From Burkholderiaceae bacterium (GTDB lineage Bacteria; Pseudomonadota; Gammaproteobacteria; Burkholderiales; Burkholderiaceae): a stretch of 5,385 bases of DNA. Position 1 is the first letter of the stretch. Each line of letters opens with the position of its first letter. The notes beneath the pieces were generated by a model. That model was not told the DNA's origin. It worked only from the letters and a program-made list of their open reading frames with translations, and ran no database searches. Below are positions 2,387 through 5,385 of this stretch, one piece after another. The DNA is taken from the NCBI GenBank assembly GCA_023253905.1, contig JALREG010000313.1:1-5385 (forward strand), given 5' to 3'. Made by a program: the position numbers and the translations under genes.

Positions 2387-2392
2387 TATAAT
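2387..2392 (+). promoter_or_regulatory. Probable -10 box of the metK promoter
   Basis: A perfect TATAAT lies 188 bases before the metK start. No good -35 match is found 16-18 bases upstream (bases 2363-2370 read CGCCGCTG). A start site about 7 bases downstream, near 2398-2400, would put the 5' end of the transcript exactly at the first stem of the structured leader. That agreement is the main reason for trusting the box. Confidence 0.6.
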
Positions 2393-2397
2393 TCGCA

Positions 2398-2459
2398 CTG
2401 CCGAGTTAAGGACAACTTGCGGGGCAGGGACCGATCGGGTCCGAAATACCGCTAAAGCG
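2398..2459 (+). promoter_or_regulatory. Pseudoknotted metK leader, SAM-II-like riboswitch candidate
   Basis: The leader can form an H-type pseudoknot. P1 is CTGCC (2398-2402) with GGCAG (2423-2427). P2 is formed by loop bases CTTGCGG (2416-2422) with CCGCTAAAG (2449-2457): GG/CC, GC/GC, then CTT/AAG around an unpaired TA. P2 abuts P1 with no linker. A small hairpin, GGACC/GGTCC with loop GATCG (2428-2442), is inserted in the third loop. The topology and the bases CTTGC and GCTAAAG match what I remember of the SAM-II core; loop 1 (GAGTTAAGGACAA) only resembles its GATTT segment. A competing hairpin, AAGCG TCGC CGCTT (2455-2468), would use the same AAG bases and could act as a switch. SAM-II is best known in Alphaproteobacteria, so this could be a variant, a separate class or chance. 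Confidence 0.5.
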
Positions 2460-2497
2460 TCGCCGCTTCTCCAGGGATCGGCCACGCCGAAGGTAAC

Positions 2498-2533
2498 TCC
2501 GCGGCGCAGGTGCCCGTCACCGCCCGCCGCGGA
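2498..2533 (+). promoter_or_regulatory. Strong GC-rich hairpin in the metK leader
   Basis: TCCGCGGCG (2498-2506) and CGCCGCGGA (2525-2533) are perfect 9-base inverted repeats. Inside them, GGTG (2509-2512) pairs with CACC (2518-2521) around a CCCGT loop. No T-run follows, so it is not an ordinary intrinsic terminator. It lies 33 bases before the metK ribosome binding site and could be part of the expression platform of the leader, a pause site or an mRNA-stability element. Confidence 0.4.
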
Positions 2534-2566: not shown

Positions 2567-2574
2567 AGAGGAGA
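2567..2574 (+). promoter_or_regulatory. metK ribosome binding site fixing a GTG start
   Basis: AGAGGAGA ends in a GGAG core (2570-2573) that sits 6 bases before GTG 2580-2582. This supports the GTG as the metK start rather than upstream codons of the same open frame, which reaches back to 2307. Confidence 0.85.
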
Positions 2575-2579
2575 AAGCT

Positions 2580-3740
2580 GTGGCCAACGATTATCTGTTT
2601 ACCTCCGAATCCGTTTCTGAGGGTCACCCCGACAAGGTGGCTGACCAGATCTCGGACGCGATCCTCGACGCCATCCTTGCGCAGGACAAGACCTCGCGCG
2701 TGGCGGCCGAAACCCTTTGCAATACCGGTCTGGTGGTGCTCGCGGGCGAGATCACCACGCGTGCCAACGTCGACTACATCCAGGTCGCGCGCGACACGCT
2801 GAAATCGATCGGCTACGACAACACCGATTACGGCATCGACTACAAAGGCTGCGCCGTGCTGGTCGCCTACGACAAGCAGTCGCCGGACATCAAGCAGGGC
2901 GTCGATGCCGCACACGACGACAACCTCGAGCAGGGCGCGGGCGACCAGGGCCTCATGTTTGGCTACGCCTGCGATGAAACGCCGGAGCTCATGCCCTCGG
3001 CAATCTATTACTCGCATCGCCTGGTCGAGCGTCAGTCGCAGGTGCGCCGAAGCGGCAAGCTCGGCTGGCTCCGCCCCGATGCCAAATCGCAGGTGACGCT
3101 GCGCTACGCCGACGGCCGCCCGGTCTCGGTCGACACCGTCGTGCTCTCAACCCAGCACGCCCCGGATGTCTCCATGGAGACCATCCGCGAAGGCGTGATC
3201 GAGGAAATCATCAAGCCGGTGATCCCTGCCTCGCTCATCAAGGGCGACATCAAGTATCTGATCAACCCGACCGGCCGGTTTGTGGTGGGTGGCCCACAGG
3301 GTGACTGCGGTCTCACAGGTCGCAAGATCATTGTCGACACCTATGGTGGTGCGGCCCCGCATGGCGGCGGCGCCTTCTCCGGCAAAGACCCCTCCAAGGT
3401 TGACCGTTCAGCCGCTTACGCCGCGCGCTATGTGGCGAAAAACATCGTTGCGGCGGGGCTTGCGAGCCGCTGCCTGGTGCAGGTGTCCTACGCGATTGGG
3501 GTCGCGCGGCCCACGTCGGTGTGGATCACCACCCAGGGCACGGGCAAGGTGAGTGACGCGCGCATTGCGGAGCTGGTACAGCAGCATTTCGATCTGCGCC
3601 CGAAGGGCATCGTGAAGATGCTGGACCTCCTTCGTCCCATCTATCGCAAGACCGCTGCTTACGGGCATTTCGGCCGCGACGAGCCGGAGTTCAGCTGGGA
3701 GCGCACGGATCGCGCCGAGGCGCTCAAAGCCTCCGCTTGA
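2580..3740 (+). CDS. metK: S-adenosylmethionine synthase MetK
   Basis: MetK makes SAM from methionine and ATP in the cytoplasm, releasing phosphate and pyrophosphate; SAM is the methyl donor of the cell. The product has 386 residues, close to the 384 of E. coli MetK. Clear motifs are [18 protein letters not shown] (13-30, with the ATP-phosphate-binding His 16), GAGDQG (119-124), [20 protein letters not shown] in the middle part, and the Gly-rich loop [16 protein letters not shown] (262-277) with its catalytic Lys, Asp and Arg residues. The GTG start follows a good ribosome binding site and gives [19 protein letters not shown], a typical MetK beginning. It is transcribed away from the acyltransferase operon. 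Its leader carries a pseudoknot that may sense SAM, and the SAH-controlled ahcY follows on the same strand. The gene appears intact, with codon use like its neighbours. Confidence 0.98.
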
Positions 3741-4219: not shown

Positions 4220-4228
4220 CTCGATCTT

Positions 4229-4388
4229 GCTTCGAGGAGCGCTGCAACGCGACATCGTCTGTCGCTGCCAGGCTCGAAGCGGCGAACATCCTGCCGGCGG
4301 GTCCCGTCCCCACAGAGCCCCGCGCGGTCTGCCGCCACCGGCCGACTGGCCCCGGCAAGAGAAGGATGCTCGCTGTTGAACGGCGCTC
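4229..4388 (+). promoter_or_regulatory. S-adenosylhomocysteine (SAH) riboswitch
   Basis: The element binds SAH and turns on genes that remove it, here ahcY. P1 is an 8-pair perfect stem, GCTTCGAG (4229-4236) with CTCGAAGC (4273-4280). The conserved core GAGGAGCGCTGCAAC (4234-4248) and CCAGGCTCG (4268-4276) are both present. P2 is GCGAC/GTCGC (4249-4253 and 4261-4265). The pseudoknot joins GAGCGC (4237-4242) to GCGCTC (4383-4388), inside the conserved AACGGCGCTC. P4 is GCGAACATCCT (4282-4292) with AGGATGCTCGC (4363-4373), 10 of 11 pairs. The 70 bases inside P4 (4293-4362) make this arm long, with extra GC-rich stems. The class is well known in Beta- and Gammaproteobacteria upstream of ahcY. 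Confidence 0.95.
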
Positions 4389-4396
4389 GTTGACCC

Positions 4397-4469: not shown

Positions 4470-5385
4470 ATGTCTGCCGTTCTGAAATCCGCGCCCGCCG
4501 CGCCTGACTATCACGTTGCCGATATCGGTCTTGCCGACTGGGGCCGCAAAGAAATCCGTATTGCTGAAACCGAGATGCCCGGCCTGATGGCGATCCGTGA
4601 GGAGTTTGCTGCAAGCCAGCCCCTCAAAGGCGCCCGTATCACCGGGTCGCTTCACATGACGATCCAGACCGCAGTGCTGATCGAGACCCTCGCAGCGCTG
4701 GGTGCTCAGGTACGCTGGGCCTCCTGCAATATTTTTTCCACGCAAGACCATGCTGCTGCGGCCATCGCCGCCGCCGGTATCCCGGTGTTTGCTTACAAGG
4801 GCGAGAACCTGGTCGAGTACTGGGAATTCACGCACCGCATTTTTGAGTGGGCCGACGGCGCGCCCAGCAACATGATTCTTGACGACGGCGGTGACGCAAC
4901 GCTCTTGCTTCACCTCGGCACCCGTGCCGCAAGCGATCCCTCGGTCATCACCAATCCGCAGAGCGAAGAAGAAACCGCGCTGTTTGACTCCATCCGCAAG
5001 CGCCTCTCCACCGATCCGGGCTGGTACGAGCGGCAGCTGAAGTCGATCGTGGGCGTCACCGAAGAGACCACCACCGGCGTCAAGCGTCTCTATCAGATGG
5101 CGGCCAACGGCGAACTCGCCTTCCGTGCCATCAACGTGAATGACTCGGTCACCAAGAGCAATGATGACAGCAATAACTGGAGCAATTGCAACAATCTCTC
5201 GCTTGTTCAAGTCAGGCAGATTTTCATTTCCTGTAGTTGTGGGGCCATGCAACGCTTTCTGGACTGGAATCAAGATGTAGATAAGGTTTACAAGCCTATT
5301 AACGCTAAAGGGGTAAATAAAATTATGATAGCTTTTTCTAAATTTCAAAGGGATATTGAACTAATGCACTATGGCGAATATATCA
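4470..5385 (+). CDS. ahcY: Adenosylhomocysteinase AhcY, N-terminal half, joined to unrelated sequence at about 5161
   Basis: AhcY splits SAH into adenosine and homocysteine using bound NAD and relieves product inhibition of methyltransferases. Residues 1-230 are clearly Ahc[18 protein letters not shown] with the substrate-binding His, [15 protein letters not shown] with the catalytic Asp, [28 protein letters not shown] with the catalytic Glu, and NVNDSVTKS ending with the catalytic Lys (residue 229). The segment around [14 protein letters not shown] belongs to the insertion present in many bacterial AhcY proteins. The next expected residues, KFDNLYGCRES, with the conserved Asp-Asn, and the entire NAD-binding domain are missing. 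Full length would be about 470 residues. The frame stays open for another 75 codons to the window edge, but those codons are foreign: antisense NuoM-like sequence, then AT-rich DNA. The fusion product would be inactive. The join is probably an artefact, and the true gene would be intact. Confidence 0.93.
5151..5279 (-). CDS. nuoM: NuoM-like fragment (NADH-quinone oxidoreductase chain M), foreign
   Basis: Read on the minus strand, in the frame opposite ahcY, this stretch gives VQKALHGPT, then [20 protein letters not shown], then IALG. This is the pattern I know from the C-terminal part of NuoM, a proton-pumping membrane subunit of complex I: a Q+FxGP turn, a short loop ending DLN+RE, then a last hydrophobic helix. 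The DLN+RE..APxxAxxxALG wording is closest to actinobacterial NuoM. GC is about 43%, against about 60% in the ahcY bases just before. The fragment has neither start nor stop and loses its family resemblance above about 5279. The identification rests on memory of the motif. Confidence 0.5.
5280..5385. other. AT-rich tail of unknown origin
   Basis: GC falls to about 30%, against about 43% in the preceding 120 bases and about 60% in ahcY. The tail does not continue the NuoM-like reading. On the plus strand AAAGGGG (5307-5313) lies 11 bases before ATG 5325, from which a frame beginning [20 protein letters not shown] runs open to the edge; it could be the start of a gene but is too short to identify. 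The composition suggests a second junction near 5280 and a third source of DNA. Confidence 0.45.

Follow-up and report, generated by a model that had tools for sequence, protein, structure and literature searches.

The metK locus and its leader

The window, which is the whole 5,385-nucleotide stretch of DNA analyzed here, contains the gene for S-adenosylmethionine synthetase (metK), which begins with a GTG codon and encodes a protein with the Pfam S-AdoMet_synt N, M, and C domains (Table 1). A pseudoknot leader sits between a divergent gene and metK. On the 3' side of metK lies an SAH riboswitch (4228-4395; Rfam RF01057, 40.4 bits), behind which ahcY begins at position 4470 (Pfam AdoHcyase). 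Within 5175-5385 the AdoHcyase match ends at residue 235 and the GC content drops from about 60% to 44%, making a chimeric contig end or an insertion possible. On the minus strand, an open reading frame at 64-333, which we take to resemble the N-terminus of DapF, ends after 89 amino acids near the contig end and may be truncated or shifted.

Table 1. Features of the metK leader and gene in the window.
Feature	Position	Strand	Evidence and remarks
-10 box TATAAT	2387-2392	+	sequence; transcription start expected near 2398
P1 5' strand CTGCC	2398-2402	+	pairs with 2423-2427; two-sided changes in 5/5 P1 pairs (alignment A2)
Loop 1 GAGTTAAG	2403-2410	+	U11/U12 equivalents at 2406-2407; G2405 at position 10 instead of U
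P2a 5' strand GAC	2411-2413	+	partner GUC 2459-2461
P2 5' strand CTTGCGG	2416-2422	+	98% of cells paired over 7 pairs, 3 of which have two-sided changes
P1 3' strand GGCAG	2423-2427	+	partner of CTGCC; covariation in A2
Loop 3	2428-2448	+	hairpin 2428-2432/2438-2442, then A-rich GAAATA; fold -9.6 kcal/mol
P2 3' strand CCGCTAAAG	2449-2457	+	U44 equivalent 2453, A47 equivalent 2456; GCTAAA invariant in 86/86
Segment a GCGTCGCC	2457-2464	+	overlaps P2/P2a 3' strands; can pair with a' (2480-2487)
P2a 3' strand GUC	2459-2461	+	partner GAC 2411-2413
Anti-Shine-Dalgarno segment GCTTCTCC	2465-2472	+	pairs with 2570-2578; covaries with Shine-Dalgarno
Segment a' GGCCACGC	2480-2487	+	a x a' statistics in leaders
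Extra GC hairpin CCGCGGCG/CGCCGCGG	2499-2532	+	within spacer; sequence; in minimum-energy folds
Shine-Dalgarno AGAGGAG of metK	2567-2573	+	sequence
metK, S-adenosylmethionine synthetase	2580-3740	+	Pfam N, M, C domains

The leader was introduced in a preliminary description as a SAM-II-like pseudoknot before a betaproteobacterial metK. P1, P2, and the loop-3 hairpin (GGACC folding with GGTCC) are located where that description placed them, and compensatory changes across 86 elements maintain P1 and P2. The two helices abut, and in P2 the CTTGCGG strand pairs with CCGC (2449-2452) and AAG (2455-2457). P2 was first drawn around an unpaired TA. Homology with the SAM-II crystal structure, in the available account, would instead make U2453 the only bulged base and the equivalent of U44; A2454 would then pair with U2418 and A2455 with U2417, leaving A2456 unpaired. 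The alignments fit a U2453-only bulge and a TA bulge equally, because these letters are invariant. The third helix of SAM-II, P2a, was overlooked at first and is present in the window, such that the element extends to 2461 rather than ending at 2459. The alteration reported in loop 1 (GAGTTA for GATTT) is present but amounts to one substitution, U10 to G. The nested-only fold of the 69-nucleotide element is unremarkable (z = -1.10), which is uninformative on the pseudoknot because a nested fold cannot show pseudoknots. The 120-base spacer to the start codon, singled out in the preliminary description, is indeed long for the family (median 72; at least 120 in 2 of 86).

In the available descriptions of SAM-II, a -10 box is located directly before P1. 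Consistent with this arrangement, a TATAAT-like box with at most one mismatch is found just 5' of P1 in 73 of 94 related metK leaders, compared to 13 with shuffled letters. The suggestion that transcription begins exactly at P1 is plausible insofar as the TATAAT of the window would place the start nearby, but no full sigma-70 pattern accompanies it; the start is positioned from the -10 box alone because a scan of 2320-2640 for a two-hexamer sigma-70 promoter was negative.

Relatives of the metK element and their relation to SAM-II

The same element is found upstream of metK in 37 of 80 fetched metK loci, all of them within L001-L049, which are mostly named betaproteobacteria along with a few records bearing vague or odd labels. 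The elements follow the pattern CGCC-GAGTTAA-n-GACAA-CTTGCGG-GGCG-loop-CCGCTAAAGCGTC, with short forms of loop 3 in L009, L036, and L030. By these patterns, none was found in the Gallionella, Nitrosomonas, and Methylophilaceae loci or in L053-L080, barring loose-pattern matches in L066 and L078 that were judged spurious. A first alignment of 29 elements, including the window, contains two-sided changes in 4 of 5 P1 pairs and 2 of 7 P2 pairs, and the model R1 was built from these 29 aligned metK elements. When R1 was applied to 300 order-mates of one genome, 190 matched at E <= 1e-3 and 110 did not. Among the matches listed, 152 were classed, 145 of which come from the 300 order-mates; these 145 examined matches (140 genomes) lie before metK (87, the element being at metK in 87 of the 140 genomes), metZ (12), or other genes (46).

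Covariation was assessed in alignment A2, which comprises 86 elements (85 metK copies outside the seed and the window) and was fitted to P1, not to P2. No tested flanking 60-mer is common to the 85 copies and L001-L049, and 2 of the 85 elements are identical to a seed element. In A2, 98.6% of 993 P1/P2 cells are paired and two-sided changes occur in 8 of 12 pairs (84 cells), values reached by none of 500 shuffles; sliding the alignment by 1-3 columns lowers the pairing to 31-54%. The exceptions are the first P2 extension pair, which is unpaired in 9 of 82 elements, and the second, which has 14 gaps. The inner P2a pairs are paired in 80 of 85 (G-C 71, A-U 8, G-U 1), 78 of 82, and 82 of 82 elements, while the two outer P2a pairs are mostly unpaired, with pair-type counts no higher than in shuffles. 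The P2a change from G-C to A-U is found mainly in one tail type, GCGTTCGCC, which is probably one lineage. Loop 3 ranges from 5 to 74 nucleotides in the relatives, and 36 of the 37 elements (out of 86) in which it is at least 20 nucleotides long fold better there than the mean of their own shuffles.

The covariation proposed as a check on the helices is thus strong in both P1 and P2. Since this compensatory change extends across 86 elements, the pseudoknot is not a chance arrangement, and the comparison confirms both its existence and its membership in a leader element that is widespread upstream of metK in betaproteobacteria. Rather than being the unusual member that it was first taken for, the element of the window is fairly representative of a common, uncatalogued metK subfamily, in which both the longer loop 3 (37/86) and G10 (71/86) are frequent.

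According to the available part of a structure survey, 13 nucleotides are completely conserved in SAM-II, U10 among them; the carbonyls of U11 and U21 are positioned at the sulfonium, U44 at the adenine, A47 at the methionine end, and G22 at the ribose. Set against these published positions in our own alignment, the window has 12 of the 13 (U11, U12, U20, U21, G22, C23, G42, C43, U44, A45, A46, and A47), including both sulfonium-facing uridines, and the sole exception is U10, which is G. All twelve are invariant in A2 apart from gaps, which 4 rows have at four of these positions, and U11/U12 are found in 86 of 86 elements. The U10 of loop 1 that characterizes SAM-II is absent from the window and from the 71 elements with G at this position; the other 15 have T.

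There is a small chance that G10 gives the pocket a different affinity window or a tolerance of SAH or another SAM derivative, and that the metK-type RNA is its own class derived from SAM-II with a hidden SAM regulon. If so, SAM synthesis would be read differently from the U10-bearing SAM-II elements that can be present at metX or metZ in the same cell, and the hidden regulon of the relatives would reach MATE-family transporters and other non-methionine operons. It is unlikely that the same aptamer fold serves another ligand (SAH, decarboxylated SAM, or MTA), or has lost discrimination via the U10 to G change, and forms a separate class. Such a reading would explain why a completely conserved part of the published SAM-II pocket is G in most metK copies, but the 15 copies that keep U10, the invariance of the SAM-contacting U11, U21, U44, and A47 where letters are present, the fact that SAM is the product of MetK, and the SAH riboswitch already located before ahcY in the window all argue against it.

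The preliminary description proposed a search with the SAM models, and the Rfam search of 2320-2640 (E <= 5) returned no SAM riboswitch; membership in SAM-V, SAM/SAH, or SAM-II long loops was rejected, as none of these models matched there. The only match in this region, c-di-GMP-II on the minus strand (18.1 bits vs a cut-off of 47.9), was taken as chance. The window and every metK copy scanned fall below the SAM_alpha gathering cut-off of 36 bits. At gathering level, 20 of the fetched metK loci contain five SAH riboswitches and no SAM-II, and at E <= 10 nine loci gave one SAM_alpha match (L030, 19.9 bits vs 36). Of 21 genomes scanned with SAM_alpha, 3 have a match above its cut-off, none of them at metK, and the sole metK match listed is in G011 (20.3 bits). 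The printed SAM_alpha consensus, as read, shares the layout of the metK element, with P2a, a two-base spacer, CUUGC ... GCUAAAG, a one-base spacer, and P2a.

The metK element shares with SAM-II (RF00521) the H-type pseudoknot with P1, P2, and P2a, the CUUGC and GCUAAA segments, U11/U12 in loop 1, an A-rich loop 3, the -10 box just before P1, and an association with SAM/methionine genes. In contrast to SAM-II, it mostly has G at position 10, commonly has a longer loop 3 with a hairpin, is located before metK, places its anti-Shine-Dalgarno platform at a distance, and scores below the Rfam cut-off. A 2007 paper, in its available text, already mentions SAM-II in betaproteobacteria. As described in the available sources, SAM-V belongs to the SAM-II superfamily, has a P3 helix in loop 3 (as at 2428-2432/2438-2442 in the window), and controls translation, as is proposed here; however, its Shine-Dalgarno lies mostly inside P2a, whereas that of the window starts 106 nucleotides after P2a ends. 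SAM-II long loops (RF01726), which we liken to the element by a table description only, is SAM-II with enlarged loops but is listed in that table for Bacteroidetes and marine samples. SAM/SAH (RF01727) is likewise a small pseudoknot before metK, but the accessible description limits it to Rhodobacterales and puts the Shine-Dalgarno inside the pseudoknot. The SAM-II-like label holds because of the compensatory change in P1 and P2 and because R1 matches where SAM_alpha also scores, and the comparative evidence that the metK element is SAM-II-type is strong. The lack of U10 and the score below the Rfam cut-off keep it from being classed as SAM-II in the strict sense; judged by sequence comparison, it forms a new variant or subfamily within the SAM-II/SAM-V superfamily. 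The Rfam SAM-II model misses a sizeable branch of this superfamily, including copies before operons without a known SAM link.

Proposed expression platform and mechanism

The segments following GCTAAA occur in the order a (GCGTCGCC), anti-Shine-Dalgarno, a' (GGCNACGC), and Shine-Dalgarno. Their pairing was compared with a null in which partners were swapped between leaders (86 leaders, 2000 permutations; the window was excluded, L081-L088 were excluded as repeats of the first set, and L168 and L169 have the same aptamer). The anti-Shine-Dalgarno x Shine-Dalgarno pairing is -13.0 kcal/mol in native leaders vs -10.2 when swapped, and a x a' -12.0 vs -10.6, with 0 of 2000 permutations in both cases, and both results hold after shuffle correction. 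The former pairing also gave 0 of 5000 in a first set of 37 leaders (window included; 1 of 38, L047, was dropped as no Shine-Dalgarno/start was found), a set that may overlap in species with the 86. The control pairing of aptamer x Shine-Dalgarno did not covary (518/2000), and a x aptamer covaries weakly (78/2000). Comparison of the leaders thus shows the complementarity of P1, P2, P2a, anti-Shine-Dalgarno with Shine-Dalgarno, and a with a'.

Equilibrium folding, in which 1 of 87 leaders (>160 nt) was omitted, gave small effects. The probability that the Shine-Dalgarno is unpaired is 0.204 in the free leader vs 0.185 when the aptamer is occupied; occupation lowers Shine-Dalgarno accessibility in 14 of 86 leaders and raises it in 5, which is the right direction but tiny, and when a alone is blocked, it falls in 13 and rises in 8. 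In the window, the best partner that the programme gives for a is another segment, not a'. If the leader does switch, it may do so co-transcriptionally.

The metK leader is probably a riboswitch of the SAM-II type in which abundant SAM represses translation of metK; we infer SAM as the ligand, the OFF direction, and the sequence of steps. The metK mRNA would begin with the H-type pseudoknot aptamer (P1, P2, P2a), whose loop 1 and P2 would enclose a SAM pocket. Abundant SAM would stabilize P2 and P2a at the extreme 3' end of the aptamer. With a held in P2a, the a:a' hairpin, which has the anti-Shine-Dalgarno in its loop, would be blocked; the freed anti-Shine-Dalgarno would then close the ribosome site and less MetK would be made. 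When SAM is scarce, the anti-Shine-Dalgarno would be occupied through a:a' or through pairing of a with the aptamer, and metK would be translated. Its overlap with the 3' strands of P2 and P2a would make segment a the natural handle from the ligand state to the Shine-Dalgarno. The SAM-II-type reading is further supported by the ability of R1, built from metK copies, to match six places also scored by SAM_alpha. Counting against it are G10, the lack of a Rfam SAM match, the mostly closed Shine-Dalgarno in both states, the order-mates without a match (110/300), the weak a x aptamer covariation, and the other partner of a.

It is improbable, although several observations point this way, that a SAM-II-type aptamer acts here mainly on transcription, via a terminator or Rho, rather than on translation. 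As read, hairpin-like segments containing T-runs lie behind most metZ/metX sister elements, alpha- and beta-proteobacterial SAM-II elements are reported in the available literature to be tied most often to terminators, and a few metK leaders, such as L014, have a T-run before the Shine-Dalgarno. The covariation of anti-Shine-Dalgarno with Shine-Dalgarno, however, favors translational control, and a scan of 2320-2640 found no intrinsic terminator pattern in the leader of the window. A conserved metK leader structure without a ligand, such as a protein-binding or mRNA-stability element, would fit the predicted Shine-Dalgarno closure that is nearly independent of the aptamer, but is highly improbable given the retained SAM-contacting nucleotides and the homology to SAM_alpha-scoring elements.

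Sister elements and wider distribution

R1 has weaker second matches in 21 genomes, and those read include matches before metZ (L089, L093), metX (L094, L095, L096, L098), and metH (L097), with NCBIfam gene names for L089, L093, L094, L095, and L097. Loop 1 of these metX, metZ, and metH elements is GATTTGA. SAM_alpha scores at the R1 place in 6 of 10 loci (L089, L090, L093, L095, L097, and L098; 26.8-36.3 bits). One of the six reaches the SAM_alpha cut-off, and five lie before metZ, metX, or metH, the genes of four of these being named by NCBIfam. Elsewhere, SAM_alpha matches a neighboring copy in L091 (41.7 bits) and another place in L092 (29.4 bits), and it lists no match in L094 and L096. 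Four genomes (G014, G015, G020, and G021) have a sister element plus the metK element; G003 and G008 have a sister element and none shown at metK.

The R1 matches before metX and metZ probably correspond to the metXZ element that Leyn et al. (2014) describe, in the available text, as a betaproteobacterial element with six conserved regions and a possible pseudoknot before metX/metZ; several of them score with SAM_alpha. The metXZ element is described there as serving metX/metZ and being followed by a terminator, whereas the element of the window precedes metK and has no terminator pattern within 2320-2640. Leyn et al. (2014), a comparative search for regulators, found none for betaproteobacterial metK and left open how the SAM-making enzyme is controlled in these bacteria. 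The metK element offers a concrete, testable answer for many betaproteobacteria. In the sources available to our literature search, a SAM-II element at betaproteobacterial metK was not found described, although an earlier description may exist.

Beyond the order, R1 matches 77 of 274 genomes class-wide, mostly weakly. The 29 loci read (L246-L274) include 15 located by eye before a metZ-like gene (the printed stretch has a T-run in 12 of the 15) and four before metK: L249 and L250 from the order set, and L267 and L268 from another lineage, in which the end of P2 is changed to UU/AA. Phylum-wide, 30 of 299 genomes match, and each of the 16 matches that score above 55 bits comes from a genome that the order set already contained.

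Several further arrangements were observed around these elements. Among the matches listed, a small open reading frame starting MYDC/MFDC (85-114 amino acids) follows 30 of the 46 R1 matches before other genes; it is directly downstream of the match in, for example, L133, L138, L145, and L213, is also found in L090, and had no Pfam match in four tested. By eye, a MATE-like open reading frame is often next, with PF01554 confirmed for L129 only, which suggests a SAM-responsive transporter operon. In L278-L288, whose genomes measure 3.7-6.7 Mb, small open reading frames of similar sequence follow a SAM-II-like element (mostly GATTTA, ACTTGCGGGGCGC, GCTAAAGCGCTGG); the one fragment tested had no Pfam match. 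On the opposite strand of the SAM-II-like elements in L089, L092, L093, and L098, RF02424 (Burkholderia sRNA Bp2_287) scores 24.6-40.8 bits, below its cut-off of 70; the model of this sRNA family may have been built from the wrong strand of a riboswitch. Tandem elements occur in L090 (516-694), where a SAM_alpha-scoring copy with a T-run lies directly 5' of a metK-type copy, and in L091. Neighboring pairs of R1 matches are found, among the matches listed, in G025, G075, G120, and G160, and one genome (G565, L258) has ten R1 matches in five neighboring pairs.
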